Shown: positions 31,816 to 64,000 of the stretch, one piece after another
Numbering within the stretch: the first letter of the stretch is position 1
How the letters are laid out: each line of letters begins with the position of its first letter
NCBI GenBank assembly: GCA_033182465.1
Contig: CP137322.1
Span: 558,001-622,000 of the forward strand
Source of the DNA: Sanghuangporus weigelae
Taxonomy: Eukaryota; Basidiomycota; Agaricomycetes; Hymenochaetales; Hymenochaetaceae
Length of the DNA: 64,000 nucleotides
Direction of reading: 5' to 3'
The notes under the pieces: generated by a model
Seen by the model: only the letters and a program-made list of their open reading frames with translations
What the model was told of the DNA's origin: nothing
The model's database searches: none
Translations under genes and position numbers: made by a program

Positions 31816-33357
31816 TTATTGCGCGAACAGAAGATCAATCAACTGGCGCCTTCCTTTAGCGGTCAGCTCAGTCTCGATACATTGCGCCAACTTTTCATTC
31901 TGCAGATGAGGCTTTACCCATCCCTCAGACGTCCTGTTTTCAGATCCTCGAATATCATACCACATAGGAAAAAAATTCTTAATCGCAACATCATTTTGGG
32001 ACTGGAAATAGAGCCAACAACCAATGCACACGAGTTTTGAATTTCCGACATAAGGGAACGCCTGAATTTTGTGGTTCAAGAGATATGCCAGCAGCTGGCA
32101 CGCGGAGTGTGGATTGTGTTTCCCATCGTGATACATGGACATGTCCTTGGTTTTGAATAGACGAAGAAGTTTTGCATGGTATGGTTCGATTATCTCGCTT
32201 GAAGACTCTGGATCTCCTGAGACCGATTCATCATGACCGATTATGGACCAGTCGGCGTCACCGTTCAATATATACGAAAGATCCGAGTCCGTCTGCAAAT
32301 CATATTTCAGGATTCTCTGATGCGCGATTCCGTTTGGGACGATCGTTATTGAGAGTGGCATATGGATGAGAGCATCCATGGAGGAGCTCTGTGAGAGGCG
32401 CAATAGTTCGCGGTACGAACGGTCAAGACTGAAGACCTCGTCCCAGAATCGGCGAAATGCATCTGGAACTCGCACCTGAAAATCATTCTGCACTGCAGAA
32501 AATTTGATGTCAACAGCTGTTCTTCTGCTCGAAGATGCCAAGCACAAAAACTCACGAATAGATGTGCATCTGGAGTAAAACGATGTATCCTCTGCGCTAG
32601 TAAGTGCCATTCTCCCGTTCTCCAAGCGTTCATTGTCCTTAAGTTCAATGTATGCACGGCTCTTGGAAATATGTTGAGCGAGTGCTTGTGCCTTTTCTTT
32701 CCTACCCTGTTCAGAGCCTTCGGACTTGTATTCATCTACTTTAAGATATACGTATCTGAAGAGTAGAAGAAGTTTGACCTCATCCTGAGTCAACCATACG
32801 GACTTCTCGAGATCTCCCGGTCTTGTTATGTATTCCTCTCCATCTTCCACGCCAAAGATGAAGTTCCTCATTGGAGTCGCTATGTCCTTTTCGAAACAGA
32901 CAATCAGACTTTCGATTGAGAAATCGTAGATAAGTCGCAGGAGATCGTCGAGTTTGTCTCTGAGAGTCGAGGACCGGTCCGTAGTAAAGCTAAGCTCCTG
33001 ACCAAGTAAACGATTCTCAGATGCTTCCTTGATTTCCCTCAGACTGCTCCAGACACGCAGCAGATGGTCCTTGGCAGCATCAAGATCTGTGCCGTTGGAT
33101 GAAAATGAAAGGTAAAGATCGAGCCCAGAGTCCGAGACGCGCAATGCGGCTGCGATCTCGTCTTCTTTCTTTGAAACAAGGATATTGGGTATCGCATCAA
33201 GGATCGGGATGATTCGTTGGCCAGACTTGTTTCTGGCGGTGGGATGGAACCGATACGGATATTCTTTCATAGCATCTCGCGGAAATCCAAATTTGACGCC
33301 GTGGACCTGTGAATTCAGGGCCGCGATGAGCTTCTCAGACACAGCAGTGTGCTCCAT
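31816..33357 (-). CDS. Intronless 513-aa protein with a degenerate deaminase-like (OTT_1508-type) C-terminal motif
   Basis: One uninterrupted frame from a clear ATG. Residues 1-400 are mostly helical and charged with no motif I recognise. Near residue 417 comes PHSACQLLAYLL, then AFPYVGNSKLVCIGCWLYF near 435-453. This order (H-x-x-C-Q-L-L followed by PYVGxSKLxCxxC) resembles the fungal OTT_1508-like deaminase family, where HAE and CxxC form the zinc site. Here the Glu expected after HA is not present (H-S-A-C), so the protein may be inactive or the resemblance may be partial. The gene lacks introns, unlike all its neighbours. The assignment is tentative and no function is claimed. Confidence 0.6.
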   Translation of the reverse strand: MEHTAVSEKLIAALNSQVHGVKFGFPRDAMKEYPYRFHPTARNKSGQRIIPILDAIPNILVSKKEDEIAAALRVSDSGLDLYLSFSSNGTDLDAAKDHLLRVWSSLREIKEASENRLLGQELSFTTDRSSTLRDKLDDLLRLIYDFSIESLIVCFEKDIATPMRNFIFGVEDGEEYITRPGDLEKSVWLTQDEVKLLLLFRYVYLKVDEYKSEGSEQGRKEKAQALAQHISKSRAYIELKDNERLENGRMALTSAEDTSFYSRCTSIREFLCLASSSRRTAVDIKFSAVQNDFQVRVPDAFRRFWDEVFSLDRSYRELLRLSQSSSMDALIHMPLSITIVPNGIAHQRILKYDLQTDSDLSYILNGDADWSIIGHDESVSGDPESSSEIIEPYHAKLLRLFKTKDMSMYHDGKHNPHSACQLLAYLLNHKIQAFPYVGNSKLVCIGCWLYFQSQNDVAIKNFFPMWYDIRGSENRTSEGWVKPHLQNEKLAQCIETELTAKGRRQLIDLLFAQ

Positions 33358-33625
33358 CGTGAGGAAGTATCGTAAAGTTTGAAGAATACGAGGCGCGCAC
33401 GTAAAGTCTAACTTATAGTCACGCGTGACTTGTACAGTCTTGTCACTGATTGATGTTATGTAAACGCTTACGTGCTTACTTGCGCAACATACTCAATATG
33501 GCCGAAGTATTACTCTTGCAGATGACGGCTATTCGACATCTGTAAGCTCTTTCGTCTATCACGCTTTACCTCCCAAAACTCTTCAACACCCACAAAGTAA
33601 ATGAAGCAAGACACAGGATTCACTG

Positions 33626-39077: not shown

Positions 39078-40507
39078 TGTTGAATTATGTCTTCAAAAAC
39101 CGGGAGCTAAGCGAGCTCGCGTCGATCACCGGCATGACGCGGCAAGGCCGTGGGACTTCCTCACTGAACCATTGGCTTTGCCGATCCCCATTCTTTCACT
39201 TGTCTCCTCCAAGACTGAACCCTGTGATTTCATTCATTCAGCTTGAGTCGTTCAATTCCCCCATCAAAATGGATGGTTATGCTTCTTCATTTCGATCTGA
39301 GATCCAACAACTTGAACTTGTGGCGAGCAAATCTTGCGGCCTTGTTTTCTCTTGGGTGCACTTAAACTTCGGGCCAATGGCTGATGCTTGCAAGAGATAG
39401 AATGCAAGTGGATGGCTTCTAAAGGCAACAGATGGCCCGTTACTTGTGCTCTCTGGCTGAAAAGCAACGAAACTTACTGCTTCCGGCTCAGAGGTATCTC
39501 ATTAAGTGGTTGAATACACGGTGTAGCGCACTGGCTCCTCCTGTGCCAGTACACTCATACTATGGCTCCCTCTTACTGCAGATACCATATCCCAGCACTG
39601 CCGACACCTGAGAGTGTGAGGGCACACTCCTATTGCACTCGGGACATCATTTGAGCACGTATCCATTGATTCCAGCACACGTACTGTACTGCGGCGCCCT
39701 CCTATGACCCAAATCGATCCACCGATGGCTCCCCGACACTCAGACAGGTCCGCCGACAGCTCCTACCCAGCACCAGGCACTATAGGACACATCCCTCAGT
39801 GACTACGTGCCGCCGATCTTATGATTTACCATACGTACAGCCGTGCGGCGACTCTGGATGCCTCCGAGTCGGCCCCCCTTGGCGCCGATCAATGCGGCGG
39901 ACACTCAGACATCCTCAGGTACCCTCGCCGACGCCTCCTACAGCTTACCAAGTAGTCCCCCATTGTCTAGGGAGCTATATATTGTTATATGTGCTTACAT
40001 GCCTCATTACGATGTATCTGCCACCAGTCCGGCAGTCCCCCACAGCACTGCCGCTCCGGCCACTCATATTAGTCACTAGGGATCGCCCACACTCTGTATT
40101 GAGTGCCGCCGATGCATCGGACACCTCAGGGACATCGGCTGATGCGCCCTGTGTCTCATATACGCGATATCAGCCTCCAATCATCGGTTCCGATGTTTCC
40201 CGACTTCCCCCCAACGCGGCGGCCCCCATTAGACCATGTATGGAAGGTAGGCATGTGGTACATCGGCGTGCCAAGCCACCGACTCGCACCGCCAAGCCCA
40301 ACTCCGCCGGCGCCCGTGTTATTGCAGATACTCAATATTTCATGTGATTGGATGCCCCCCTCACGTTGCCGCTCTCAGATTTCATCTGGGCGCTCCGGCA
40401 GCGGCCCTTGGCGACCCAGATGACTCAGGAGATGTTGTCAGACAGTAGGATGTGTCGGCGACAGCAGTAGAGTATATATAGAGCTTATACTAGCTTGTAG
40501 ACGACAG
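39078..40507. repeat. GC-rich, gene-free stretch leading into the inverted 836-bp repeat; unclassified
   Basis: About 1.4 kb. From about 39500 on it is rich in CCGCCGA and TCCGGCA-type words, with many short open frames that are composition artefacts. A TATATATAGAG box is at about 40474. It is continuous in style with the 836-bp repeat, so both may belong to one larger unclassified element. Confidence 0.4.
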
Positions 40508-41343
40508 GATTCCAAGCCTAGCAAGGATTCCAAGAGCATGTACCAGACCGAGCGCTAGAGTTCGAGATATCCCTCACTCTGAGTCTCCCCTCATGTACTG
40601 AGCCTCCCCCTTGACTATATACTATCCTTGACATCTCCTCTTGTTTGACTCCACATTCTACTTGCCTTTGCCGCCTCCGGTACGCCTCTGCCGCTCTGAC
40701 GTTCAGTGAGTGAGTAGGGCTTGGGATTTAACCCTGAGCCTCCTCCCCACACTTTATACCTGTCCGGCGCCCCTCTATTTGACATCGGCGACCCTTCGGC
40801 GACCCAGGCTTCTTATCAGACTCCCCTTCGGCGTCCTTTCCAGCCTTTCACTCCAGTTTATCCCATCTATTGATCTTATACGGTCTTTTCCTTTCATCTA
40901 TCACGTTTACGCTACTTCGGCAGATTTGTGCAGCCTCCCCCTCAATCCGGCACCCCTCTATTCGACGTCGGCGGCCACCTGGCGACCCAGCCTTCCTATC
41001 ATACACCCCTGCAGCGCCCTTTCCAGCCTTTCACTCCAGCTTAGTCCATATATTCATCTTATACGGTCCTTTCTCTCCATCTATTGTGTTTACGCTACGT
41101 CGGCAGCCCCCTGTGATCCCCCCTCTCAAGCGGCGGTCCTGTTATCCTATTCCCTTTATCCAGCGGCATCCCTAGACCCATCCATTACGTCTCCGACGGT
41201 TCCTGGCACCTGCCGGGTAGTAGGTCTTTGAGAGTCTGATAGCGTCGGCATCCCATTTTTGGAGGTCCCTTCATACATTCAGCACCCTTAGTAGGACGGA
41301 CATCTGTAGCACCTTCAGATACGACACCGCCGACCGACAACGG
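40508..41343 (+). repeat. 836-bp repeat, copy A, containing a 183-bp tandem duplication
   Basis: Present again in inverted orientation at 42917-43752 with the same length. Inside, a unit beginning CCGGCGCCCCTCTATTTGAC (40764) repeats at 40947 as CCGGCACCCCTCTATTCGAC, a period of 183 bp, with a partial third unit after about 41100. The open frames over it are low-complexity Ser/Pro/Leu and unlikely to be genes. The following 162 bp (41344-41505) show no feature. Confidence 0.8.
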
Positions 41344-41505
41344 TTGTGCCATCTTGGGATGTGACAATTACAATGGCTATGTCGCAAGAGTTATGATCCA
41401 TCTTGGTAGAATGGAAGGTAATCTCTTGTTAGGGTGACAATCTCGCTATCAGATCAGGTATAGTGTGCGAGGCGAAGGCTGGGTGTCTTTCATAACTTGC
41501 CCAAC

Positions 41506-42917
41506 TGTTAGGGAGTAGGCCCGGAGTTACACCGGTTTGATCCTTTTGCCTAAGCAGCGGTGTGTTGTGCAGAGGTGATCTTATCTACCCACGTCTGGCT
41601 GTACCACGCGGTCCCTTACTAGCCTTCCTAGTCGCGGTCCGAGTTATGGATGCTTTCAGATACGAGGTGATAGTAAAGCAGATTGAGATTTTCAAGAGGC
41701 GTGATAGTACAAAGCACACAGTAATAGCTCGCTGTAGGGCAAGCTTTACACCAGTGTGTTAAGAGGATCGAAAGATGGGGAAATGAGGGCCTAATCCTAC
41801 AACTATTTATGCTCCCAGATATTCCATTTTCCGTCCTATTTCTTACTCATCCTGTCTCCACTTTACTCCACTTTTCTCCACCATTACATCTGTTCCTTTG
41901 TCATCCTGCTGCGCTTTGCTCCACTTTGCTCCAATCTTTGTAAGGTCGTCTCCACTATGACAGAATTCTGTGGAGTTGCTGACTGAGACAATAGAGGTGG
42001 TGTTCCGATGTGGAATGCTCCACTGTCAGTACTCCATAACGATGTCATTGCCGTCATTGAGTGGCATCTTTGCCCTTGGAGTGATGTAGGCTGCTCGGTA
42101 TGTGATTCTTCGGAATTCATCTCGAGGTCCAGCGAGGGTAAGCATAACTCGCACGTCCGTGTTAAGGTGTCGGGTCGGTGTAGAGTATGGTCCAAGGCAT
42201 ATCATGAACTGCATAAGTTCTGCTGGCGGGTTCTGCTGGGTTCTGGTGACTAGCCATGCTTTGCCTTCATATCGTATGTCTCGAATGTAATGCCATATCC
42301 TTCATTGTATAAGGAGTTGTAATTGCTTGGTCTCCAGGTTCGCATCTCTCGGTAAATAAAGGTTTGCCTGTATCGTAGATGCTGGACATGGTGTGTGCAA
42401 CTCTGGTCTATACCATCCAATCATTCTCCAAGTTATCGGGTTCGCGGTTCGAGGGGTTCGAGTTGTGATCGTGAGTTCCTCTCGTTTCTTGGGTACTATT
42501 GGGTTTGGTAGATTGGAATGCATTGTATCTTGAAGGTGTCGCTCGGTTTCGATGTGACAGTCACGCGTACCAACTGTTGCCGTGCATACTATGTAGTATA
42601 CTTCATAAAGGACCATGTAAACTCGTGCACAGACTTGACAGTGCTGAAATGCCAGTGAGGTCTCCATAAACCTTATTAGCCTTTAGCCTTTTAGCATTTA
42701 GGCTTTAGTAGTTGTGCTTCTGGACTTCTAAGAAGTTTGATCGCTTCTTTTGATCGAGGTCGCTCTGGTTGCTTGGTCGGCGGCGTTAGAGTGGTAGTCC
42801 GCGGTAATAGGCGGTCGGCGGTGTTAGCTGTTAGCGGGATTACGTATCCGCTTCGGTGCTTCTAGCGCTCGGGTGGTAGCGGGTTACTGTTGCCTAGGCC
42901 GCTCGATCGCTTGGGCC
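41506..42917 (-). mobile_element. Truncated LTR of the same gypsy family (older, isolated copy)
   Basis: Aligns to the LTR at 43753-45264 from its TGTTAGGG end to the GGGCC at 42911-42917, where similarity stops and the inverted 836-bp repeat begins. About 100 bp of the LTR are missing. It is more diverged than the other copies. Its U3 reading frame (42667-42026) is broken by CGA to TGA in the QRRIWRYI segment. Confidence 0.85.
42026..42667 (-). pseudogene. Decayed copy of the U3-encoded 213-aa ORF
   Basis: Starts METSLAFQHCQVCARVYMVL as in the intact copies, but a TGA interrupts it after LLIQ near 42305. The rest continues in the same frame to the normal end NDGNDIVMEY, so this single stop is the main lesion. 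Confidence 0.75.
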
Positions 42918-43752
42918 CGTTGTCGGTCGGCGGTGTCGTATCTGAAGGTGCTACAGATGTCCGTCCTACTAAGGGTGCTGAATGTATGAAGGGACCTCCA
43001 AAAATGGGATGCCGACGCTATCAGACTCTCAAAGACCTACTACCCGGCAGGTGCCAGGAACCGTCAGAGACGTAATGGATGGGTCTAAGGATGCCGCTGG
43101 ATAAAGGGAATAGGATAACAGGGCCGCCGCTCAAAAGGGGGGATCACAAGAGGCTGCCGACGTGGTATAAACTCAGCCACAGGAAGGTATGAAGCATATA
43201 AGATGAATATAAAGGATAAAATGGAGTGAGTGGCTGGAGAAGGCGCCGCTGGGTCGTCTGATAGGATGCCTGGGTCGTCGGATGGCCGCCGACGTCGAAT
43301 AGAGGGGTGCCGGACTGAGGGGGAGGCCGCAGGAATCCGCCGAAGTAGCGTAAACGCGATAGATGAAAGGAAAAGACCGTATAAGATCAATAGATGGGAT
43401 AAACTGGAGTGAAAGGCTGGAAAGGACGCCGAAGGGGAGTCTGATAAGAAGCCTGGGTCGCCGAAGGGTCGCCGATGTCAAATAGAGGGGCGCCGGACAG
43501 GTATAAAGTGTGGGGAGGAGGCTCAGGGTTAAATCCCGAGCCCTACTCACTCACTGAACGTCAGAGCGGCAGAGGCGTACCGGAGGCGGCGAAGGCAAGT
43601 AGAATGTGGAGTCAAACAAGAGGAGATGTCAAGGATAGTATATAGTCAAGGGGGAGGCTCAGTACATGAGGGGAGACTCAGAGTGAGGGATATCTCGAAC
43701 TCTGGCGCTCGGTCTGGTACATGCTCTTGGAATCCTCGCTAGGCTTGGAATC
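42917..43752 (-). repeat. 836-bp repeat, copy A', inverted relative to 40508-41343
   Basis: Reverse complement of copy A with scattered substitutions, including the two 183-bp units. Its far end stops exactly at the LTR of gypsy copy M, in GGAATC|TGTTAG, whereas copy A continues past GATTCC with CTGTCG in inverse sense, so copy M probably inserted into this repeat. Confidence 0.8.
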
Positions 43753-45388: not shown

Positions 45389-45704
45389 ATGTCGAAAGTC
45401 GCCGCTGCTGTTACTGTTTTTGTCGTTATTGTCGCGATTTTCGGCATAAATCATTGGATTTTGGAGCGTAAAAGGCGTGCTCAGGTAAGTGATGCATGCT
45501 CTGTGCCGTTTCGAGTTGTTAATCATCCTCTAGGAGGCTGACTTCGAAATGCAATCGTTCCAGCGCGATGTTACTACTGTCGCGCTTCGAGTTCACCTCG
45601 CGCTCGGTTATGACGTTGAGGTTATCGATCCAGTCGTCGAAAATGCAGGTATTGCTTCGCAGGAACGTCGTGAAAAGGGTGTCTGGGAAGACATTGACTT
45701 GTAA
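45389..45704 (+). CDS. Antisense two-exon gene of the retrotransposon, 88-aa single-pass membrane protein (copy M)
   Basis: Encoded opposite to gag-pol, 125 bp from the 3' LTR. Exons 45389-45484 and 45534-45704 flank a 49-nt intron with GTAAGT donor, TTAATC branch-like site and CTAG acceptor. The product starts MSKVAAAVTVFVVIVAIFGI (membrane span), then NHWILERKRRAQ (basic stop-transfer side) and a soluble acidic tail containing DFEMQSFQRDVTTVALRVHL and ending REKGVWEDIDL. Positive-inside reasoning puts the C-terminal domain in the cytosol. The same structure, with an open frame and intact splice sites, occurs in copy P. No similarity I can name; not env-like in length. Coding status rests on conservation of frame and splice sites between the two copies. 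Confidence 0.65.
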
Positions 45705-52119: not shown

Positions 52120-52469
52120 TGAAAGGATCCGCTCAAAAACTCGCATCAGGATCGACACGATCAACAGATCTACACGATCAGCTTTCCAAACGCGACCGGT
52201 AACCAAGCCAGCTATCAAAGGCCCAAGCAATCGAGCGGCCTAGGCAACAGTAACCCGTTACCACCCGAGCGCTAGAAGCACCGAAGCGGATACGTAATCC
52301 CGCTAACAGCTAACACCGCCGACCGCCTATTACCGCGGACTACCACTCTAACGCCGCCGACCAAGCAACCAGAGCGACCTCGATCAAAAGAAGCGATCAA
52401 ACTTCTTAGAAGTCCAGAAGCACAACTACTAAAGCCTAAACGCTAAAAGGCTAAAGGCTAATAAGGTTT

Positions 52470-53111
52470 ATGGAGACCTCACTGGCATTTCAGCACTGTC
52501 AAGTCTGTGCACGAGTTTACATGGTCCTTTATGAAGTATACTACTTAGTATGCACGGCAACGGTTGGTACGCGTGACTGTCACATCGAAACCGAGCGACA
52601 CCTTCAGGATACAATGCATTCCAATCCACCAAGCCCAATAGTACCCAAGAAACGAGAGGAACTCACGATCACAACTCGGACCCCTCGAACTGCGAACCCG
52701 ATAACTTGGAGAATGATTGGATGGTATAGACCGGAGTTGCACACACCATGTCCAGCATCTACGATACAGGCAAACCTTTATTTACCGAGAGATGCGAACC
52801 TGGAAACCAAGCAATTACAACTCCTTATACAACGAAGGATATGGCGCTACATTCGAGATATACGATACGAAGGCAAAGCATGGCTAGTCACCAGAACCCA
52901 GCAGAACCCACCAGCAGAGCTTATGCAGTTCATGATATGCCTTGGACCATACTCTACACCGACCCGACACCTTAACACTGACGTGCGAGTTATGCTTACC
53001 CTCGCTGGACCTCGAGATGAATTCCGAAGGATCACATACCGAGCAGCCTACATCGCTCCAAGAGCAAAGATGCCACTCAATGACGGCAATGACATCGTTA
53101 TGGAGTACTGA
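52470..53111 (+). CDS. U3-encoded 213-aa ORF (5' LTR of copy P), unknown function
   Basis: Open from ATG to TGA with no lesions, same product as in the other two young LTRs. Body contains RHLQDTMHSNPPSPIVPKKR, then REELTITTRTPRTANPITWR, LLIQRRIWRYIRDIRYEGKA and LMQFMICLGPYSTPTRHLNT. No domain recognised. An LTR of 1.5 kb is long for this group, and this frame fills about half of U3. Because it is upstream of the predicted start of transcription, this 5' copy would be expressed only from another promoter. Confidence 0.55.
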   Translation: METSLAFQHCQVCARVYMVLYEVYYLVCTATVGTRDCHIETERHLQDTMHSNPPSPIVPKKREELTITTRTPRTANPITWRMIGWYRPELHTPCPASTIQANLYLPRDANLETKQLQLLIQRRIWRYIRDIRYEGKAWLVTRTQQNPPAELMQFMICLGPYSTPTRHLNTDVRVMLTLAGPRDEFRRITYRAAYIAPRAKMPLNDGNDIVMEY

Positions 53112-53335
53112 CAGTGGAGCATTCCATATCGGAGCACCACCTCTATTGTCTCAGTCAGCAACTCCAAAGAATTCTGTCATAGTGGAGACGACCTTACAAA
53201 GATTGGAGCAAAGTGGAGCGAAGCGCAGCAGGATGACAAAGGAACAGATGTAAAGGTGGAGGAAAGTGGAGTAAAGTGGAGTAAAGTGGAGACAGGATGA
53301 GTAAGAAATAGGACGGAAAATGGAATATCTGGGAG

Positions 53336-53371
53336 CATAAATAGTTGTAGGATTAGGCCCTCATTTCCCCA
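53336..53371 (+). promoter_or_regulatory. Predicted core promoter of the gypsy LTR: TATA-like box and transcript start
   Basis: CATAAATAG at 53336-53344 is followed about 30 bp later by ATCTTTCGATCC (53371-53382), whose complement is the primer-binding site. The start at about 53371 is inferred from this pairing and the spacing. Confidence 0.6.
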
Positions 53372-53643
53372 TCTTTCGATCCTCTTAACACACTGGTGTA
53401 AAGCTTGCCCTACAGCGAGCTATTACTGTGTGCTTTGTACTATCACGCCTCTTGGAAATCCCAATCTGCTTTACTATTACCTCGTATCTGAAAGCATCCA
53501 TAACTCGGACCGCGACTAGGAAGGCTAGTAAGGGACCGCGTGGTACAGCCAGACGTGGGTAGATAAGATCACCTCTGCACAACACACCGCTGCTTAGGCA
53601 AAAGGATCAAACCGGTGTAACCCCGGGCCTACTCCCTAACATT

Positions 53644-53702: not shown

Positions 53703-54044
53703 GTGTTTTATCGAGGCGAGGACCGTCGACCTCAAGCCCCTATCGACGTCACTAGTTTCGAGACTAGTACCCATATCGAATCCTCAGGACAAGTGCACAT
53801 CCTGGAGAACGACAAACCCGATTCACTTAAATCACACATCTACTATCATAACCCCTACAACGACGAAGTGTACCTAATAGCAAAGGCATCTGGTAGCCCT
53901 GCAGTTGGGAGCACACAAACAACAACCACGAAAGTAGCAGCAGTCCCTTCCACTATTGCTACATTCGACGAGAAAGGAACTACTTGGTTAACAGCACCAA
54001 GGAACAATAACCCTGAAGCATCAGGCGAGAAACGAAGTTCATGA
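53703..54044 (+). CDS. ORF0 of gypsy copy P, upstream of gag, no ATG in frame
   Basis: The frame is open from 53640 to the TGA at 54042-54044 but contains no ATG; 53703 is a GTG. Product contains SGQVHILENDKPDSLKSHIY and NPYNDEVYLIAKASGSP, not recognised. Its stop overlaps the ORF1 start in ATGA. Translation would need a non-AUG start, a spliced leader (a GTAAGG-type donor is present in R near 53527) or it may not be coding. Confidence 0.4.
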   Translation: MFYRGEDRRPQAPIDVTSFETSTHIESSGQVHILENDKPDSLKSHIYYHNPYNDEVYLIAKASGSPAVGSTQTTTTKVAAVPSTIATFDEKGTTWLTAPRNNNPEASGEKRSS

Positions 54045-55075
54045 ACCGATCAGGAAACGCCAACAACAGAAGTAACGGTCATCGAACGAACGAACGGGCG
54101 AACGATAATCAAACGAGGTTCACACCTAGATCCCTCGACGAACGAGTTCAACATATCACCAACAGGCTACGTAGTCTGGAAAGCGATCACGACATACTAT
54201 ACGCGACAACGAACCACAGCATATTGTATCCACCAGTGATCAGAAGGCTACAAGAAAGGGTTGAAAGACTGGAAGAACGAACTGCAAACACGGGGCAGTC
54301 AAACAGTCTACCAACCGGAGCATACGCGACAGCAGTAGGAGATCGATTCGAAGCACTCGAAACAACTACTCGAAGAATTGGAGCACAGGTAGCAGCTCTA
54401 GAGAGATATACTCTGGAATTGGATCGAGCAGCAGGGGCACTCAATCAACGGGTCATAGACGGAAACGGAGTACTTGACCGAGAGCTCAACGCTATCCGGA
54501 ACAGGATTACTGCTCAGGAACAACAACTACAAACGATTGAGACGAGAGTCGGAGAGCTTAACAGGACAGCTCTAGATCAACCAAGGATTGTTCAAGACAT
54601 CCATAACCTGCGAGAAGCCCTACTCCAACTAGGACAAACAATCGAGTCGAGTCAACGCACCTACGCAGCTATACTCACATCGGTACAGACAACCGAAACC
54701 ACCTCGAGGAACATACTCGAACACGCTCAACGAATTCGAGAAGTAGCTCAGGCAGCACAACGCTGGGAATACTTTCTACCAAGAGAGAGAGCCCAACAGG
54801 AACAGAGTTCTGACGAATCAGTGTCCTCAGACGAAGAAGCATCACGAAGGCCATTCTTACTCAGAACCCCACCTCGAACGGTTATTATCCAAGTACCAAC
54901 AGTACCTGCAGTACCAGCAAGTGGTTCAGTAGCAACCCAAGCGCCAGAGAATCCACCACCACCATCCTATTCACCACCAGCAGTGCCCATAAGCACTTAC
55001 GATCATGTCGACAACCGACCAGAAGGTGCAAGCACTGGAGCAGCAACTACAGACTCTTCAGACACAACTCTCTAA
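54041..55075 (+). CDS. ORF1 of gypsy copy P: 344-aa coiled-coil protein upstream of gag
   Basis: Starts MNRSGNANNRSNGHRTNERA. From about residue 35 to 240 it is a heptad-like coiled coil (RLQERVERLEER, VAALERYTLELDRAAGALNQ, AQEQQLQTIETRVGEL, LREALLQLGQTIESSQ), followed by an acidic Ser patch and a Pro-rich C-terminus (NPPPPSYSPPAVP). The last 71 nt overlap the gag start in another frame. Gypsy elements normally begin with gag, so an extra coiled-coil ORF here is unusual. It could be an accessory nucleoprotein or an assembly factor; this is inference. PPPPSY resembles late-domain-like Pro motifs, but only superficially. Confidence 0.6.
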   Translation: MNRSGNANNRSNGHRTNERANDNQTRFTPRSLDERVQHITNRLRSLESDHDILYATTNHSILYPPVIRRLQERVERLEERTANTGQSNSLPTGAYATAVGDRFEALETTTRRIGAQVAALERYTLELDRAAGALNQRVIDGNGVLDRELNAIRNRITAQEQQLQTIETRVGELNRTALDQPRIVQDIHNLREALLQLGQTIESSQRTYAAILTSVQTTETTSRNILEHAQRIREVAQAAQRWEYFLPRERAQQEQSSDESVSSDEEASRRPFLLRTPPRTVIIQVPTVPAVPASGSVATQAPENPPPPSYSPPAVPISTYDHVDNRPEGASTGAATTDSSDTTL

Positions 55076-56093
55076 ACACAGCATCAAGCTTCCGAAGTAC
55101 TATGGCAAGCGAAGCGAAGATATTGATCTGTGGATTAGTCGATGTATCTCGAAGCTGGCACAGCATGGAGTCAAGGATGAGGAGGAGATCGCAAAGAGCC
55201 TATTTGCGGCACTAGAAGGCGACAGCTACGATTGGTTTGCAGAGAAGAATACCCTAACATCATTCGATGCCAATGGGAAACTGAAACCAGTACCTGCGAT
55301 TATCGCTGCAACAAATGGAATGTTCGCATCACTCAAGGACATGCTGAACTGGATGAGGATCCGAGCAGGACATCCGATCATTGGAGAACAGGAAGCCCTA
55401 TTCCAACTACTATGCATCCAGCAGAAAGGAGCAAGCATTAGGGCGTACAACGACGAGTTCCGACGACTCAAAGCACGAGCACCAGACACGATGGATAAGC
55501 AGATGCTCAAGTACATCTATGTCAAAGGACTAGACATGTGGGTCAAACGACGAGTCGAATCTGTACAACCCGACGCTTTCGAGAAGAACGACCTCGATGC
55601 ATGGATGGAATGGACAAGCAACCTAGCAAACTCTGATGCCAGACAAAGGCTCATGGGTAGTCAAACATATACCCCAAGATTCAAATCGAATGGACAGTCA
55701 TCTTTCCGACCACCAGTACAAACAACGAAACGAGATCCAGACGCCATGGATGTAGATGCACTCCGAGGCTTGCCGAAGAAGGGAGGCAAATGCTACAACT
55801 GTGAAAAGTCAGGACATTACGCAAAGGAGTGCAAGGCACCAAGGAAGCAAAAGGGTTCTTCCTCTAAGCGGCCGAAGAAGACTAATGGTGTAAAACGGAG
55901 GACGATGACAACACGAACAATCGATTTCAAGGAAACATGTCCCGATCCACACTGCCGAAGGCCAGTCCACTACGACCATGTAGCATGGGCTAAAGGCGAT
56001 GAATCAGCAGGATGGACTTGCAAGCATGACGAAGAATACCGAAACAACATTCGCAAATCCCTAGCAAGTAAAGAGCAACAGGGAAAAGATTAA
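55005..56093 (+). CDS. gag: Gag of gypsy copy P, 362 aa with zinc knuckle
   Basis: Starts MSTTDQKVQALEQQLQTLQT. Capsid-like helical region with KLPKYYGKRSEDIDLWISRC, LFAALEGDSYDWFA, LLCIQQKGASIRAYNDEFRR and YVKGLDMWVKRRV, matching retrotransposon gag. A CCHC knuckle CYNCEKSGHYAKEC follows at about residue 264, then a basic stretch and a second Cys/His cluster (TCPDPHCRRPVHYDHVAW ... CKHDEEY) that could bind another zinc. Ends GKD just after the slip site. Complete in this copy; in copy M only the last 13 codons are in the window. Confidence 0.9.
   Translation: MSTTDQKVQALEQQLQTLQTQLSKHSIKLPKYYGKRSEDIDLWISRCISKLAQHGVKDEEEIAKSLFAALEGDSYDWFAEKNTLTSFDANGKLKPVPAIIAATNGMFASLKDMLNWMRIRAGHPIIGEQEALFQLLCIQQKGASIRAYNDEFRRLKARAPDTMDKQMLKYIYVKGLDMWVKRRVESVQPDAFEKNDLDAWMEWTSNLANSDARQRLMGSQTYTPRFKSNGQSSFRPPVQTTKRDPDAMDVDALRGLPKKGGKCYNCEKSGHYAKECKAPRKQKGSSSKRPKKTNGVKRRTMTTRTIDFKETCPDPHCRRPVHYDHVAWAKGDESAGWTCKHDEEYRNNIRKSLASKEQQGKD
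56081..56087 (+). promoter_or_regulatory. GGGAAAA -1 ribosomal slippage site at the gag/pol overlap
   Basis: In gag phase it reads G-GGA-AAA, the canonical X-XXY-YYZ form, followed by GAT and the gag stop. The pol frame is open from 56072 and is exactly the -1 frame. The fusion would run through LRPPSNETARCEC and FNNQCFKPPGFNPSEAMYNK into pol. No stimulatory structure was verified. Confidence 0.65.
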
Positions 56094-56197
56094 GACCTCC
56101 ATCGAACGAGACTGCGCGATGTGAGTGTAACAAGGGTGACGAGAAAGGTTTCAACAACCAGTGTTTCAAACCTCCTGGGTTCAACCCCAGTGAAGCG

Positions 56198-59100
56198 ATG
56201 TACAATAAGCGATTGCCAATACAAGCATTGCATCCCCGATTACCTATTCGAGTGAAGGTTGGAACAAAGACCCTAGCAGTCAAAGCATTAATCGATTCCG
56301 GAGCTACATGCAGCACGATACACCCCAACTTGGTACGACACTACAGCCTATTCAAAAAGAGGCTTGATCACCCTCGACCTTTGAATAATGCAGATGGAAG
56401 TCCCAACCAAGGAGGAGCAATCACGCACGAGGTCTACACATTAATTTTTGATGGACCTAAACCGCAGCCACAAACGTTGGCAGTAGCAACCACAGGACAG
56501 GATCAAGTGATCCTAGGAATTGACTATTTGGCCAAAGTCAATCCCGAAATTGATTGGAAGAATCAAGTATGGAATCGGAATGGTAATTCGATACCATTCG
56601 AGCTCAACGTCATACGAGTTACCAAGAAGCGAAGGCACAGGAAGCGCAAACGGAAACGGCAAACGAAAGGCAAACCTGACAAGACAAGACCTAGGCATAA
56701 CACGAAGCAACAGGCTCAGGACAGAGACAACTATCGACACTCTGGAGCACCAGGAATAATATTTGCGCCAAGGAGAGACAACAACGGACACTCTCACGAA
56801 ACGAAGCCACAAGCGAAGCCGGAAACCAGACCAGCAACACCAAGACTGGAACAGGCAAAACAGACGCCAGAAGTGAAGAGTCCGAGCACGGAAAATATAC
56901 CAGACTCTGCAACGAAACAGCCACAACAGGAAACGGCAAACAAGCATCATCGAGATGAGGAGGAAATAAACTACACTCCCAAGCGATGGAAGAAACAGGC
57001 ACCACAAGGAACGAGTATAGTGCAACGACGACCAAGGCACATACCGAGACGGATGATCCCAGCACGGCAACTGTACCAGACATCCGAAGGTGAAACACAA
57101 GATGTAACAGGCAAGCATAGCCTAGACGAACAGGAGGAAATAAACGACTCTCCGAAACGTTGGAAGAAACAACCACCACAGAAGATACACCCACTGAGGC
57201 AAAACATGCCGGAAGATGAAGAACTCTGGCCATCACCAGAAGAAAACCCGGGCATGAAGTATAGGATACGACCACGAAAGACACGGTATCCAGAGAAGCC
57301 AGTGGCAGGCATTATACGACCGAGAACGGCATCGTTAATGCGAGGAGCTAGTCCCACACCGAAGCGTACAAGATGGGCAGACAACGAAAGCGATATCGAG
57401 ATGCAAGACGAGCAGGGGACAACAGAAGACACTCCTATGCACGATATAGAGCCAGAAGACATTGAAAGTCTTAGGACGACCAACCAACCAGCTACCCTTA
57501 CCAGAAAGGAAGAGCTCGCTGCAAAGCTAGAGCTGGACATCAATCGAAATTGGTCACCAAGGCAGCAGAACCAAGTCTCACAGCCTCTGAACAAAGCGAG
57601 TTCAGTATCCCAGCAGTATTCTCAACAAAAGGCAGCTGCAGAAGGACTACTAGGAACACAGAAACGAGATTGGCGAAAACTCCTACCAAAGGAAATAGAA
57701 GACTACGCAGATGTCTTTGATCCTGACAAGTCAAGAAGGTTACCCAAGCATACGAAATGGGATATGGCGATTAACCTCAAAGAAGGAGTACCATTACCGA
57801 AACCAAGGCCTATTATCAAGCTCACACGAGAAGAGCAGGCAGCACTCGATGCTTACGTCAAAGAGTTACTTGACAAAGGATGGATTGAAAAGGTTCAACC
57901 ACATGAACCATGTCCGGTAGCAGCACCAGTCTTCTTTGTAGGAAAGAAAGACGGAGGAGCACGAGCAGTAACCGATTACCGAGACATCAATGACACGACA
58001 GTATCAGACCCATACCCGATACCGATCATGAGTGTTCTCCCAGAGAAACTGGAGAAAGGAAAATTCTTCTTTACACTCGACATGCGATCAGGTTACAACA
58101 ACCTGCGAATCCGAGAAGGAGACGAGTGGAAGGCAGCATTCCGAGTTGGCAATGCAGTCTACAAGCCAAAGGTCATGATGTTTGGAATGAAGAACTCACC
58201 TGCAGTATTCCAACGATTCATGAATGACAACTTCGAATATTGGCTCAGGACAGAAGAAGCACTCAACTATTTGGACGACCTTATTGGTCAAGCACAAACT
58301 GAAGAGGAACATTGGAAACTCCTCAGGGCAATTCTACAGAAATGCCGAGAGCTCGACATTTACCTCAAAATCGAGAAATGTCACTTCCTCCAAACCCAGC
58401 TCGACTACTTGGGATTTGTAGTAGGAACGAAAGGCATCCAGATGGATCCTTATAAGCTCAAAGCTATTCACGAATGGCCAGTGCCAAAGACGAAACGACA
58501 AGTTCGAAAGTTCCAAGGATTTTGTAACTTCTACCGAAGATTCATCAGGAACTATGCCGATACATTCGCACCTATTGGCGACCTTATCAAAAAGGATCGC
58601 AAGTTCATATGGGCAGAGGCACAAGATAAGGCATTCGAAAGTATCAAGAAGGCATTCGAAACGGAAGTCGCATTGGCAATGCCAAAGCCAGACAAACCAT
58701 ATACATTGGAAACCGATGCATCCGATGTAGCGATTGGTGCAGTCTTACAACAAGAAGACAACCAAGGAGAACTGAGACCTTTAGGTTTCATGTCGAAAAC
58801 TCTAACGAACACCCAACGAAACTATCCAACGCATGACAAAGAGATGCTAGCAATCATGGAAGCACTCAAGCATTGGAGACACCTATTGGAGGGAACCAAA
58901 GAACCAGTAACAATCCGAAGCGATCATGCAAACCTCCGATACTTCATGACAGCTCAGAATCTATCGAGACGTCAAGCAAGATGGGCACTAGAGTTATCAC
59001 GATATAACTTCAAGATTCTCCATTGGCCAGGCAAGAAGAACCAAGCTGACGAGCTATCACGACGATCCGACTATATGCCAGAGGACAAGGACAACTTAGG

Positions 59101-60676
59101 AGTTACCTTATTACCTCCTGATACGATCAAGCAACAAACATTGCGACGCACAGAGATCAACGGTCTATACAAGCTAGAAACTGAAATGGTCACTATCTCT
59201 GATCCTATTATCCGAACGATCAAGAGGAACTACAATACCGAGGAGGCTAAGAAGGAAATTCAGGCGATCAAGCAGAGCAACGGCTACAGTTACAGGAACG
59301 GCTTGCACTACGTAACCAATGCATTATATATCCCGCCGTCCGCCAACCTACGAGCGTTGCTAATCCGAAGGCGCCATGATCACAAACTTGCAGGCCACCC
59401 AGGAGCAGAAAAGACCATAGAGCTTGTAAAGCGATCATACTATTGGCCGAAGATGGAAGAAATGATCCGAGCATATACCGCAACCTGCGACATATGTCAG
59501 CGTGCAAAACCGATTCGACAGTTTCGAAATCCGCCGCTCCAACCGTTGGAGGCACCACATCAACCATGGGAAACCATAACCTGTGACCTGATTACCGACT
59601 TACCAGTCAGCAATGAAGGCTACAGTGCGATACTCGTTATAGTGGACAAACTCACTAAAATGGGGAAGTTCATTCCTTGCCAAGGAATACCCAATGCTAA
59701 GCAGTTGGCACGTTTGTTCCGCCAACATGTCTTCAAATACTACGGGGCCCCTAAACGAGTAATCTCCGACCGAGGTAGCAACTTCACCGCGCAATTCCTC
59801 AAGGAGTTCTGCAGACTCATCGATGTCGATTGGAAAACTAGTACAGCGTATCATCCACAAACCGATGGTCAAACCGAGCGACTAAATCAAGAGCTTGAAC
59901 AGTACTTACGCTGCTATGTGTCCTACCGACAAACAGATTGGGCAGAGTACATCGATATAGCAGAATTCGCCTACAACAACAGGAAGCACAGTACTACACA
60001 TCAGTCACCATTCTATACACTGTATGGATGGCATCCTCACCTGGACGTTGCGGAGACCGGTGATTCAAACGTCCCAGAAGCAATAAATCACCTAGAGGAG
60101 CTTCGACAAGTACAGCAAGAAGCCTATAATTCGATTAGGCAAGCGAATGAGGCAATGAAGCTTTATGCAGACCTGCATCGAGGCAAACTGCCAGAGTACA
60201 AGCCAGGAGACGAAGTGTTACTAGACATGAGGAATCTCAGTCGATTGGAACCAACGAAGAAACTTGCAATGAAATGGGCAGGGCCTTATAAAGTCGAGAA
60301 GGCAGTCGGACAAGTGTCATTCAGATTACGCTTACCCGAAACCCTTCCGATCCACCCAGTGTTTCATGCGAGTCTTCTCAGGCCTTACAAACGAAAGGAA
60401 TACCCTGGAAGACCCACTTTGGATGAACCACCACCTATTGAAGTGGAGGGAGAAGCAGAGTACGAAGTGGAGACGATTCATAACACAAGACGTCATCGGA
60501 GCAAGGTCCAATACCTTACCCAATGGAAAGGATACCAGGAGCGAACATGGGAGCCACTTGACAACCTCAAGAACTCCTATCAAATGATCGAAGCATTCCA
60601 TAAAAAGTATCCTCAGGCAATCCAGCCACCGAACCTTAACCAATGGATCGCCGCACGAAAACGAATGAGGCAATAG
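56198..60676 (+). CDS. pol: Pol polyprotein of gypsy copy P (PR-RT-RNase H-IN-chromodomain), 1492 aa
   Basis: Same domain order as copy M: protease ALIDSGATCSTIHP, RT with catalytic YLDD (codons at 58268-58279), RNase H, HHCC/DD35E integrase and terminal chromodomain (here VQYLTQWKGYQERTWEPLDN). The first in-frame ATG is 56198, but the frame is open from 56072, and the likely product is a Gag-Pol fusion made by slippage at 56081. The PR-RT linker is unusually long and basic, with KKRRHRKRKRKRQTKGKPDK near residue 142 and a duplicated motif EEINYTPKRWKKQAPQ / EEINDSPKRWKKQPPQ. The chromodomain places it among chromoviruses, which in fungi target heterochromatin marks; targeting here is inference. 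Confidence 0.95.
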   Translation: MYNKRLPIQALHPRLPIRVKVGTKTLAVKALIDSGATCSTIHPNLVRHYSLFKKRLDHPRPLNNADGSPNQGGAITHEVYTLIFDGPKPQPQTLAVATTGQDQVILGIDYLAKVNPEIDWKNQVWNRNGNSIPFELNVIRVTKKRRHRKRKRKRQTKGKPDKTRPRHNTKQQAQDRDNYRHSGAPGIIFAPRRDNNGHSHETKPQAKPETRPATPRLEQAKQTPEVKSPSTENIPDSATKQPQQETANKHHRDEEEINYTPKRWKKQAPQGTSIVQRRPRHIPRRMIPARQLYQTSEGETQDVTGKHSLDEQEEINDSPKRWKKQPPQKIHPLRQNMPEDEELWPSPEENPGMKYRIRPRKTRYPEKPVAGIIRPRTASLMRGASPTPKRTRWADNESDIEMQDEQGTTEDTPMHDIEPEDIESLRTTNQPATLTRKEELAAKLELDINRNWSPRQQNQVSQPLNKASSVSQQYSQQKAAAEGLLGTQKRDWRKLLPKEIEDYADVFDPDKSRRLPKHTKWDMAINLKEGVPLPKPRPIIKLTREEQAALDAYVKELLDKGWIEKVQPHEPCPVAAPVFFVGKKDGGARAVTDYRDINDTTVSDPYPIPIMSVLPEKLEKGKFFFTLDMRSGYNNLRIREGDEWKAAFRVGNAVYKPKVMMFGMKNSPAVFQRFMNDNFEYWLRTEEALNYLDDLIGQAQTEEEHWKLLRAILQKCRELDIYLKIEKCHFLQTQLDYLGFVVGTKGIQMDPYKLKAIHEWPVPKTKRQVRKFQGFCNFYRRFIRNYADTFAPIGDLIKKDRKFIWAEAQDKAFESIKKAFETEVALAMPKPDKPYTLETDASDVAIGAVLQQEDNQGELRPLGFMSKTLTNTQRNYPTHDKEMLAIMEALKHWRHLLEGTKEPVTIRSDHANLRYFMTAQNLSRRQARWALELSRYNFKILHWPGKKNQADELSRRSDYMPEDKDNLGVTLLPPDTIKQQTLRRTEINGLYKLETEMVTISDPIIRTIKRNYNTEEAKKEIQAIKQSNGYSYRNGLHYVTNALYIPPSANLRALLIRRRHDHKLAGHPGAEKTIELVKRSYYWPKMEEMIRAYTATCDICQRAKPIRQFRNPPLQPLEAPHQPWETITCDLITDLPVSNEGYSAILVIVDKLTKMGKFIPCQGIPNAKQLARLFRQHVFKYYGAPKRVISDRGSNFTAQFLKEFCRLIDVDWKTSTAYHPQTDGQTERLNQELEQYLRCYVSYRQTDWAEYIDIAEFAYNNRKHSTTHQSPFYTLYGWHPHLDVAETGDSNVPEAINHLEELRQVQQEAYNSIRQANEAMKLYADLHRGKLPEYKPGDEVLLDMRNLSRLEPTKKLAMKWAGPYKVEKAVGQVSFRLRLPETLPIHPVFHASLLRPYKRKEYPGRPTLDEPPPIEVEGEAEYEVETIHNTRRHRSKVQYLTQWKGYQERTWEPLDNLKNSYQMIEAFHKKYPQAIQPPNLNQWIAARKRMRQ

Positions 60677-60930: not shown

Positions 60931-61929
60931 ATGCCTATCTTCGACGAGCTACATGCATTCTGTCAACCAGAAGATGCACCAGAATGGACATTTACACTCA
61001 GGCCACCGACCGAACGTTATCAATGGCCACAGCTGTGCAACCGATTCAACGAAGAGAACTACGAAGATGAGATTGTACCCCTATGCCCAGGGAAGTACTT
61101 CGATGATCTATTCGACAAGTGGAACGCAGTCCACCACAACCGAGACGAAATACCCCATCTTATGATGGCGAATCACTCAGACGAGTGGTTATTCAAACTC
61201 AGTAACCCTCGAGACGCAGCATTACGCCGACTCAATGATGATGCATTTCTAACCTATGCGATCGAACTCGAAACACAAGCATTACACCGAGGCAAGATCG
61301 ACTTTAGGCACGAAACGACATACAAGAACATCATGGGTATCTATCATTCGGCAATCCAAATTTGCGCCTACCGACGAGACATGACTACCGCAATTCTTAA
61401 CCGAATGATGCGATGGAGTCACTATCATCCGATGAGCATCGATGCGATGAAGTACATTATATACATAGCCGACCAGACGGGCTTCTATGCATCCCACACC
61501 ATGCAGTTCATGACGGTACTCAACATGACGAAGTATTACGAAGGAACGAGATACCGAACGGTTATTGAAGCGAGGAACTCTACTACGGACGAGGTACCAC
61601 TCGACAACATCGAGCACCATGTAGTCGAAGGCAAAGAGGTTAACTACGACCCTCATTACCTTATGGAACTCAACAACCGAGAGGAAGAAGCCAGAGAAAA
61701 ACTACAGGCTACACGACACCCCTTGCTGGAAGATCTGATGATCTCAGTCTACCAGTACCCGAACGAACTCTACCAGCCGGACGAGATGCTTACTATGTCG
61801 GAACAGGAGGATATGTACATACACTCCGACGATACAGAGTCAAGTGAAGAAGGTGAAAGCAGGGAACTATATACCCCAGCGAACTCGGCCCAGACTACAC
61901 CTGAGGCTGAAGAATCCGAAGATTTGTAA
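60931..61929 (+). CDS. ORF-X of gypsy copy P, 332 aa, unknown protein in the env position
   Basis: Starts MPIFDELHAFCQPED and is otherwise the same as the 358-aa ORF of copy M. The upstream ATG (60858 region, MENFEL) exists but is out of frame because copy P has one extra nucleotide in GAGCTGAACGAAC relative to GAGCTAAGGAAC of copy M. The last residues are acidic (TTPEAEESEDL). No membrane span or signal peptide. The long shared frame suggests a real accessory protein whose true start may be the internal ATG. Confidence 0.65.
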   Translation: MPIFDELHAFCQPEDAPEWTFTLRPPTERYQWPQLCNRFNEENYEDEIVPLCPGKYFDDLFDKWNAVHHNRDEIPHLMMANHSDEWLFKLSNPRDAALRRLNDDAFLTYAIELETQALHRGKIDFRHETTYKNIMGIYHSAIQICAYRRDMTTAILNRMMRWSHYHPMSIDAMKYIIYIADQTGFYASHTMQFMTVLNMTKYYEGTRYRTVIEARNSTTDEVPLDNIEHHVVEGKEVNYDPHYLMELNNREEEAREKLQATRHPLLEDLMISVYQYPNELYQPDEMLTMSEQEDMYIHSDDTESSEEGESRELYTPANSAQTTPEAEESEDL

Positions 61930-62469
61930 ACAACTCTTCTTTTATGCAACCCCTTTCCCATATCGTGACCCGACATGGTCAATTATGCATTTTCATTCTT
62001 ACCTTATGATATTTATGGTCACATCCGACCAAATTATGCTTCATGCACCTCTTTATTTCACGCTTATTCGGCCAACCAGCACAAATGAAGCACTATGCAG
62101 AAGTGTCAAAGAACCTACAAGGGCCTAGACATTTTGTATATTGTTTTATTGTGCCGGCTCCGAATTAGCAGATTATGCCTACCTTTTATTATCCTCTATG
62201 CAACGGAGAAGCCAAAAGTTTACGTGAAGTCACTCCCTTGCATCATGCTAGGATGTGCCTTCACGCTGAAAGGCACTCCAATTACACTCTTTCTTCGAAA
62301 AACTCCATTTGGGGGTTGAAGAGCCGTAGGTAAACACCTGGAACTTCACTCCCAAATTGGTATAAAACTTATTCATTAACGACTTTATGATTTCTTTCTT
62401 ATCACTTTCAATTGCGTCATATTCTTTACATGATGCACATTTCATATTCATATCCCTTCCCACCACCCT

Positions 62470-62785
62470 TTACAAGTCAATGTCTTCCCAGACACCCTTT
62501 TCACGACGTTCCTGCGAAGCAATACCTGCATTTTCGACGACTGGATCGATATCCTCAACGTCATAACCGAGCGCGAGGTGAACTCGAAGCGCGACAGTAG
62601 TAACATCGCGCTGGAACGATTGCATTTCGAAGTCAGCCTCCTAGAGGATGATTAACAACTCGAAACGGCACAGAGCATGCATCACTTACCTGAGCACGCC
62701 TCTTACGCTCCAAAATCCAATGATTTATGCCGAAAATCGCGACAATAGCGACAAAAACAGTAACAGCAGCGGCGACTTTCGACAT
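62470..62785 (-). CDS. Antisense two-exon gene of the retrotransposon, 88-aa single-pass membrane protein (copy P)
   Basis: Mirror of the gene at 45389-45704: exons 62785-62690 and 62640-62470, a 49-nt intron with the same GTAAGT/CTAG ends, product starting MSKVAAAVTVFVAIVAIFGI and ending KGVWEDIDL. Two amino-acid changes from copy M (V to A in the span, V to D in the tail DVE-x-ID), no lesions. The start is 124 bp from the 3' LTR, so a promoter would have to sit between the polypurine tract and this start or inside the LTR in antisense. Confidence 0.65.
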
Positions 62786-62894
62786 TTTGGAGCAGAGATG
62801 ATGACGGTTTGATAGCAAAAATCAACCATCACTAGGCGACCCTTTATCCGAGCTTTCTCACGGATTAGGATGAACATTTCTCCGAAAGTTCATC

Positions 62895-62909
62895 TTAGGG
62901 GGGGTGTAG
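62895..62909 (+). other. Polypurine tract before the 3' LTR
   Basis: TTAGGGGGGGTGTAG directly precedes the LTR TGAAAGG. G-rich primer for plus-strand synthesis; the complement is seen beside the LTR of copy M (45265-45279). Confidence 0.75.
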
Positions 62910-64000
62910 TGAAAGGATCCGCTCAAAAACTCGCATCAGGATCGACACGATCAACAGATCTACACGATCAGCTTTCCAAACGCGACCGGTAACCAAGCCA
63001 GCTATCAAAGGCCCAAGCAATCGAGCGGCCTAGGCAACAGTAACCCGTTACCACCCGAGCGCTAGAAGCACCGAAGCGGATACGTAATCCCGCTAACAGC
63101 TAACACCGCCGACCGCCTATTACCGCGGACTACCACTCTAACGCCGCCGACCAAGCAACCAGAGCGACCTCGATCAAAAGAAGCGATCAAACTTCTTAGA
63201 AGTCCAGAAGCACAACTACTAAAGCCTAAACGCTAAAAGGCTAAAGGCTAATAAGGTTTATGGAGACCTCACTGGCATTTCAGCACTGTCAAGTCTGTGC
63301 ACGAGTTTACATGGTCCTTTATGAAGTATACTACTTAGTATGCACGGCAACGGTTGGTACGCGTGACTGTCACATCGAAACCGAGCGACACCTTCAGGAT
63401 ACAATGCATTCCAATCCACCAAGCCCAATAGTACCCAAGAAACGAGAGGAACTCACGATCACAACTCGGACCCCTCGAACTGCGAACCCGATAACTTGGA
63501 GAATGATTGGATGGTATAGACCGGAGTTGCACACACCATGTCCAGCATCTACGATACAGGCAAACCTTTATTTACCGAGAGATGCGAACCTGGAAACCAA
63601 GCAATTACAACTCCTTATACAACGAAGGATATGGCGCTACATTCGAGATATACGATACGAAGGCAAAGCATGGCTAGTCACCAGAACCCAGCAGAACCCA
63701 CCAGCAGAGCTTATGCAGTTCATGATATGCCTTGGACCATACTCTACACCGACCCGACACCTTAACACTGACGTGCGAGTTATGCTTACCCTCGCTGGAC
63801 CTCGAGATGAATTCCGAAGGATCACATACCGAGCAGCCTACATCGCTCCAAGAGCAAAGATGCCACTCAATGACGGCAATGACATCGTTATGGAGTACTG
63901 ACAGTGGAGCATTCCATATCGGAGCACCACCTCTATTGTCTCAGTCAGCAACTCCAAAGAATTCTGTCATAGTGGAGACGACCTTACAAAGATTGGAGCA
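62910..64000 (+). repeat. 3' LTR of gypsy copy P, cut by the window end (1091 of about 1522 bp)
   Basis: Identical by eye to 52120-53210. It should end at about 64431 outside the window. Confidence 0.92.
63260..63901 (+). CDS. U3-encoded 213-aa ORF (3' LTR of copy P), unknown function
   Basis: Same protein as at 52470-53111. This copy lies inside the genomic RNA, since it is in the U3 of the 3' LTR, and could be reached by a spliced or internally initiated transcript. No domain recognised. Confidence 0.55.
   Translation: METSLAFQHCQVCARVYMVLYEVYYLVCTATVGTRDCHIETERHLQDTMHSNPPSPIVPKKREELTITTRTPRTANPITWRMIGWYRPELHTPCPASTIQANLYLPRDANLETKQLQLLIQRRIWRYIRDIRYEGKAWLVTRTQQNPPAELMQFMICLGPYSTPTRHLNTDVRVMLTLAGPRDEFRRITYRAAYIAPRAKMPLNDGNDIVMEY

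Follow-up and report, generated by a model that had tools for sequence, protein, structure and literature searches.

A family of chromodomain Ty3/gypsy retrotransposons in the fungal genus Sanghuangporus very probably carries an accessory protein gene, which lies antisense between pol/ORF3 and the 3′ LTR. The gene was recognized in a stretch of 64,000 nucleotides from Sanghuangporus weigelae (contig CP137322.1, positions 558,001 to 622,000), hereafter the window, where both copies of the element encode two exons, separated by a 49-nt intron, on the strand opposite gag-pol. Together, the exons specify a protein of 88 amino acids.

The host element and its antisense gene

Two copies of one LTR retrotransposon fill approximately 44-64 kb of the window. 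Copy B (52120 to beyond 64000) sits inside copy A, near the end of the copy A gag, and its insertion is marked by a 5-bp target duplication, TTTGC. The two copies are 99.5% identical over 7952 bp of self-alignment. Copy B is flanked by LTRs on both sides and is organized as follows:

52120..53641, plus strand: 5′ LTR, 1522 bp, TG...CA, delimited by self-alignment
54041..55075, plus strand: ORF0, 344 aa, starting before gag and overlapping it
55005..56093, plus strand: gag-like ORF, 362 aa, with a zinc knuckle
56072..60676, plus strand: pol; RT, RNase H, integrase and chromodomain pass their Pfam cut-offs
60931..61929, plus strand: ORF3, 332 aa, sense, after pol, without a Pfam match
62910..64000, plus strand: 3′ LTR, starting TGAAAGG and running past the window end

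The copy B pol follows the Ty3 order of RT, RNase H and integrase, with the chromodomain at its C-terminus. A protease-like match (gag-asp_proteas, E 1.6e-5) falls just below its cut-off, at 25.9 against 28.2 bits. The pol domains, including the chromodomain, and the zinc knuckle of gag identify copy B as a chromodomain Ty3/gypsy element (chromovirus). All Pfam matches of ORF0 remained below cut-off, the best being a coiled-coil family. ORF3 has 111 matches in the genome, some few of them partial and 104 free of stop codons, and shows a dN/dS of 0.10-0.19 against four copies.

The LTR holds a 213-aa sense ORF (63260-63901, plus strand) without a Pfam match. Its dN/dS amounts to 0.23-0.25 against three old LTR copies (dS 0.62-0.78) and to 0.16-0.46 against three younger ones, with stop codons in five of the six copies compared; a protein gene under selection within an LTR would be unusual. 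Beside copy A, at 40504-43752, additional LTR-like pieces, 94-98% identical to the family LTR, suggest a nest of insertions. An open frame of 558 codons at 31816-33492 (minus strand), in which an OTT_1508-like deaminase domain exceeds the Pfam cut-off, is apparently a host gene.

The antisense gene is composed of the following parts:

62690..62785, minus strand: exon 1 of copy B, 96 nt, 32 codons, with start codon, membrane span and basic flank
62641..62689, minus strand: intron of copy B, 49 nt, GTAAGT...TTAAT...CTAG
62470..62640, minus strand: exon 2 of copy B, 171 nt, 56 codons and stop, acidic tail
45389..45484, plus strand: exon 1 of copy A
45485..45533, plus strand: intron of copy A, 49 nt, same sequence as the copy B intron
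45534..45704, plus strand: exon 2 of copy A

The first-pass annotation had described two exons with identical 49-nt introns, GTAAGT and CTAG sites, an N-terminal span, an RKRR flank and an acidic tail, 88 aa in all, and this description is exact in both copies. Between them, 3 of the 316 nt of the gene differ, resulting in A13V, a silent change in codon 28, and D62V. Judged by hydropathy and charge, the protein has a single hydrophobic span and an adjacent polybasic stretch. The span starts about four residues from the N-terminus (MSKV), reaches a Kyte-Doolittle 19-residue maximum of 2.28 in the window from residue 2, and is followed by ERKRR. Residues 25-32 carry a charge of +3 and residues 33-88 one of -9, and the exon 2 tail includes a conserved NAGIASQE block. 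By the positive-inside rule, the product would span a membrane so that the short N-terminus faces outward and the tail, first basic and then acidic, extends into the cytosol.

A known domain for the 88-aa protein was sought and rejected. Pfam gave nothing above cut-off (best AtPDCT1_2, 14.5 bits against a cut-off of 27), and the lone match of a PDB profile search, erbB-2 at E=0.53, is taken as a chance transmembrane-helix match. An AlphaFold2 prediction from five annotated relatives yielded a weak model (mean pLDDT 63) with a long helix at residues 3-56 and a second helix at 64-79, which gives no function. The antisense exons of copy B are not overlapped by any sense ORF of at least 60 aa that starts with ATG, so sense coding of this kind does not explain the constraint on them. 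Downstream, a 67-aa ORF (62248-62451, minus strand) was considered as a second antisense gene; 17-nt insertions fall inside it in sister copies, and it is probably not a gene.

Conservation and selection across the family

The antisense gene is a standard part of the Sanghuangporus family. That its frame and splice sites are kept in both window copies, as the first-pass annotation had emphasized, is true but proves little, because these copies are nested and nearly identical. A search of the 33.87-Mb genome (13 contigs) with the exon-2 protein returned 109 matches (E<=10), all but one (108/109) without a stop. Among them, 107 are 91-100% identical, and the remaining two are the old copies L009 and L074, each located beside a family LTR. 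The gene was read at 70 of the 109 loci, that is, in 70 fetched entries (69 distinct loci, as L001 duplicates copy B) and in L074. Frequent breakage of the frame or splice sites, as expected for neutral sequence, had been proposed as the observation that would count against a gene; both exons are open at 69 of the 70 loci read, and the proposal of a gene withstood this check. In all 70 fetched entries, both exons are open and the intron borders are GT and AG. The donor GTRAGT is present in 69 of the 70 and in L074; in L020 it is damaged to GTAGTG by a one-base deletion. L074 retains the splice sites, the length and an open exon 1, and has one TGA in exon 2.

Counted over the genome and unpaired by locus, the totals are near one gene per element, with 109 matches for exon 2, 111 for ORF3 and 110 for a hairpin motif of the leader. 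Two ORF3 loci lacking an exon-2 match were inspected, and the gene is absent from both: in L083 an LTR directly follows ORF3, and in L082 the similarity stops before the antisense gene. L081, which has the hairpin motif and no exon-2 match, is a remnant beside an LTR.

As judged from substitution statistics, the spliced frame is under purifying selection of a strength close to that on pol. The oldest copies, L009 and L074, share 65-71% exon identity with the window copy in global alignment. For the 88-aa frame, the first-pass annotation had suggested a dN/dS comparison, which gave approximately 0.2-0.3 when the oldest copies were set against the window lineage (0.21 for L009, 0.26 for L074); these ratios are approximate, as dS exceeds 1 in the window-versus-old pairs. 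The same method gives 0.13-0.21 for pol and 0.10-0.19 for ORF3. Exon 2 alone shows values of 0.155 and 0.171 against the two oldest copies, compared to 0.85-1.93 in shifted frames. The spliced frame is the lowest of the six frames in six of seven pairs, which are non-independent. The exception is L009 against L074, with 0.433 for the spliced frame and 0.345 and 0.428 for two others; both copies are taken to have been decaying since insertion.

Recent copies were examined by comparing 66 near copies with the window copy. This set comprises the 70 entries minus the window copy itself, L001 (the duplicate), L009 (diverged) and L012 (with a different downstream flank). Of the exon changes, 30 are nonsynonymous and 29 synonymous, and none creates a stop. 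Under a neutral model in which mutation types and CpG context are preserved, 41.1 nonsynonymous plus stop changes are predicted, against the 30 observed (P=0.0001); the zero stops alone are non-significant, arising in 5% of neutral runs. Distinct indels number 0 in 267 nt of exons, 1 in 49 nt of intron, 4 in 124 nt of leader, 1 in a 36-nt LTR piece and 28 in 685 nt downstream. A separate count with a majority reference points in the same direction and is not relied on.

Conservation of this kind could also arise if a small Sanghuangporus membrane-protein gene had been transduced in antisense together with its intron, the constraint then reflecting a benefit to the host. The 49-nt intron and the compact, promoter-like leader fit such a captured passenger. 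However, no host locus stood out among the 109 exon-2 matches, for part of which the flanks were read, the totals come to about one gene per element, and old copies decay, with stop codons interrupting pol, ORF3, the LTR ORF and exon 2 of L074. We consider capture from the host unlikely. Because active lineages keep the gene at near-pol constraint while old copies decay, the benefit of an accessory gene of the element most likely goes to the element.

The leader module and the intron

A short module links the start codon of the antisense gene to the 3′ LTR; its features are:

62786..62909, minus strand: 124-bp module from the antisense start codon to the 3′ LTR, candidate promoter and 5′ leader
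62869..62894, plus strand: palindrome GATGAAC-ATTTCTCCGAAA-GTTCATC, directly before the polypurine tract
62897..62909, plus strand: presumed polypurine tract AGGGGGGGTGTAG, judged by its position adjoining the 3′ LTR

The minus strand carries a TATA-like GGATAAAGGG at 62849-62840, some 60 nt upstream of the antisense start codon. Between the window and L074, the module is 92.7% identical, compared to 65.0% for the exons, 72.5% for the intron and approximately 77-79% for the LTR; against L009, its identity is 85.0%. The palindrome has 110 genome matches within 3 mismatches. The 100 matches listed, including those of the two copies in which the gene is about one third diverged, all fit without mismatch a pattern in which two loop positions are degenerate. 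Folding of the 124-nt module as RNA is only mildly better than that of shuffled sequences (z-score -1.77, with 11 of 200 shuffles equally good), and we therefore make no RNA-structure claim for the hairpin. The module may serve both plus-strand priming and antisense initiation, and a host RNA polymerase II promoter within it would drive an antisense mRNA of its own.

If the antisense transcript acted solely as a regulatory RNA that silences or tunes the element, the ORF would be incidental. The 124-bp leader is indeed better conserved than the exons or the intron, and antisense RNAs regulate other retrotransposons, according to the excerpted text of PMC7264820. Such a purely regulatory transcript nevertheless leaves unexplained the codon-position pattern, the dN/dS of 0.2-0.3, the lack of exon indels and the frame kept across the intron, and we regard it as quite improbable. 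An RNA role in addition to the protein is compatible with the data.

The intron offers further evidence on the coding frame. A branch-like TTAAT or CTAAT lies just before the acceptor in the seven introns compared. A functional intron, presumably removed by the host spliceosome, is supported by the conserved splice sites and by the constraint on exon 2 in just the frame into which splicing brings it. Among copies, the intron is 48, 49 or 50 nt long, so that its own frame is not kept. This bears on the notion that the real product is translated without splicing, a protein of some 50 aa that terminates in the frame with the intron retained. From the antisense start, that frame is open for 50 codons, yet exon 2 is constrained in exactly the spliced frame. 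With the intron length shifting by single bases and the constraint following the spliced frame, an unspliced product was rejected as scarcely credible.

Sense retrotransposition removes sense introns only, whereas an antisense intron survives. The first-pass annotation had argued along these lines, and its reasoning is sound by established knowledge: being antisense to the genomic RNA, the intron is never lost at retrotransposition. Protein production would then need a separate transcript, started beside the 3′ LTR by each integrated copy. No intronless genomic copies were found among 100 of the 106 matches (<=3 mismatches) that were listed; the best of these has 2 mismatches, and all are unspliced acceptor sites. 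This is consistent with an antisense mRNA that is not reverse transcribed, from which no intronless copies are expected. As the intron can be spliced only in antisense RNA, one junction read would prove both transcription and strand. The 88-aa gene is small enough for study, and its intron makes antisense expression directly testable.

Relatives and comparison with known systems

A search of 5.77 billion proteins returned eight relatives of 88 or 91 aa, all from Sanghuangporus; none were found outside the genus in this search, which needs shared words, and short genes often go unannotated. P0001 originates from S. weigelae, whereas P0002-P0006 (88 aa) and P0007-P0008 (91 aa) originate from S. 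baumii, where one cluster contains 18 sequences. Compared with the window protein, P0001 is 95% identical, P0002-P0005 are 58-63% identical and P0007 is 49% identical; P0006 is 58% identical to P0001, and P0008 is 91% identical to P0007. The length of the relatives implies the same splicing in their annotations. Public annotation labels them as host 'hypothetical proteins'. They may be ab initio predictions; the S. weigelae annotation paper names AUGUSTUS, GeMoMa and PASA in its excerpted text (PMC10803629).

Among 2000 first-order random sequences of the length of the 980-nt ORF3-LTR region, 24 contain an ORF that spans two exons joined by such splice sites and reaches 88 aa or more, so the bare existence of the ORF is only mildly surprising. 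Least credible of all is a chance ORF in a recently amplified repeat: the 99.5% identity of the window copies and the random rate of about 1% would suit it, but the structure is kept in old copies at 65-71% exon identity, the S. baumii proteins are 47-65% identical to P0001 or P0007 with length kept within three residues, and it is the family-wide conservation and its selection statistics, not the existence of the ORF, by which chance is rejected.

The Sanghuangporus gene is a real gene of the known class of antisense extra ORFs and differs by its conserved intron and its small predicted membrane product. In the available parts of PMC7264820 and PMC11963269, the plant aORF-3R genes of Ty3/gypsy elements are represented by maize Grande gene23, rice RIRE2 and Retand. 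Like the fungal gene, they lie between pol and the 3′ LTR in the orientation opposite to gag-pol, occur in most copies and are conserved like other element genes; Grande gene23 is reported there to be transcribed from its own promoter (PMC7264820, PMC11963269). Their products show nuclear localisation in some cases and a TRP28 domain in Retand, as described in the same excerpts (PMC7264820, PMC11963269), whereas the Sanghuangporus gene contains a conserved intron, and its small product is predicted to lie in a membrane and matches no domain. Neither the main text of PMC7264820 nor that of PMC11963269 uses the word 'intron', and the former, in its available part, calls for a search for antisense and spliced transcripts. 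In position and conservation, the Sanghuangporus gene agrees with the aORF-3R class.

For a fungal precedent, brtn of Boty-like elements, the source is reportedly Zhao et al. 2011. In the excerpted accounts, brtn is an antisense extra gene of Boty-like elements of Botrytis cinerea (PMC7264820, PMC8365987, PMC4227169), and the two genes are alike in belonging to a fungal gypsy element with a chromodomain gag-pol (PMC4227169). The comparison draws on the descriptions in these papers, and the brtn host is an ascomycete. The first-pass annotation was right that antisense ORFs are known in some plant gypsy elements, but had left brtn of Boty, likewise known according to the available part of PMC7264820, unnamed. 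A literature search over titles and abstract openings found no antisense gene of an LTR retrotransposon that combines a conserved intron with a small membrane product.

HTLV-1 HBZ and HIV-1 ASP are antisense retroviral genes, of which HBZ is spliced and ASP is a membrane protein. The Sanghuangporus gene resembles them as an antisense gene of a retroelement; unlike them, it overlaps no sense ORF of at least 60 aa in copy B. None of our searches gave a relation to HBZ or ASP, and no Pfam family, bZIP included, reached its cut-off. A retroviral-type Env is a large glycoprotein in sense orientation, composed of surface and transmembrane parts; an antisense product of 88 aa without a Pfam match above cut-off does not correspond to it.

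Closest in anatomy to the 88-aa protein are the insect sORF2 or FAST-like proteins of Drosophila MDG1 retrotransposons, which, in the excerpted text of PMC11952523, share a short single-pass form, a polybasic stretch just past the span and a cytoplasmic tail. In that text, all sORF2 candidates are sense-oriented and have an N-terminal ectodomain with an amphipathic motif, often with a myristoylation motif MGxxxS/T (PMC11952523), whereas the Sanghuangporus gene is antisense and its product, starting MSKV with about four residues before the span, is without an ectodomain of this type. For these two reasons we do not class it with the sORF2 proteins.

The usual picture of intracellular Ty3/gypsy replication requires no membrane protein, and our results suggest that a basidiomycete retrotransposon family maintains one. 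The function of antisense extra ORFs of LTR retrotransposons is described as unexplained so far in the available part of PMC7264820. We tentatively postulate a membrane-anchored helper, which might recruit a host factor or products of the element to a membrane, or modulate host trafficking or silencing, to the benefit of the element. A far more speculative idea, which we consider very unlikely, is that fungal chromoviruses have a second, antisense spliced unit whose N-out/C-in protein tethers particles to membranes and aids their passage between hyphal compartments or partners. If this were true, the tethering protein would parallel the insect sORF2 helpers, having evolved independently of them and on the antisense strand.
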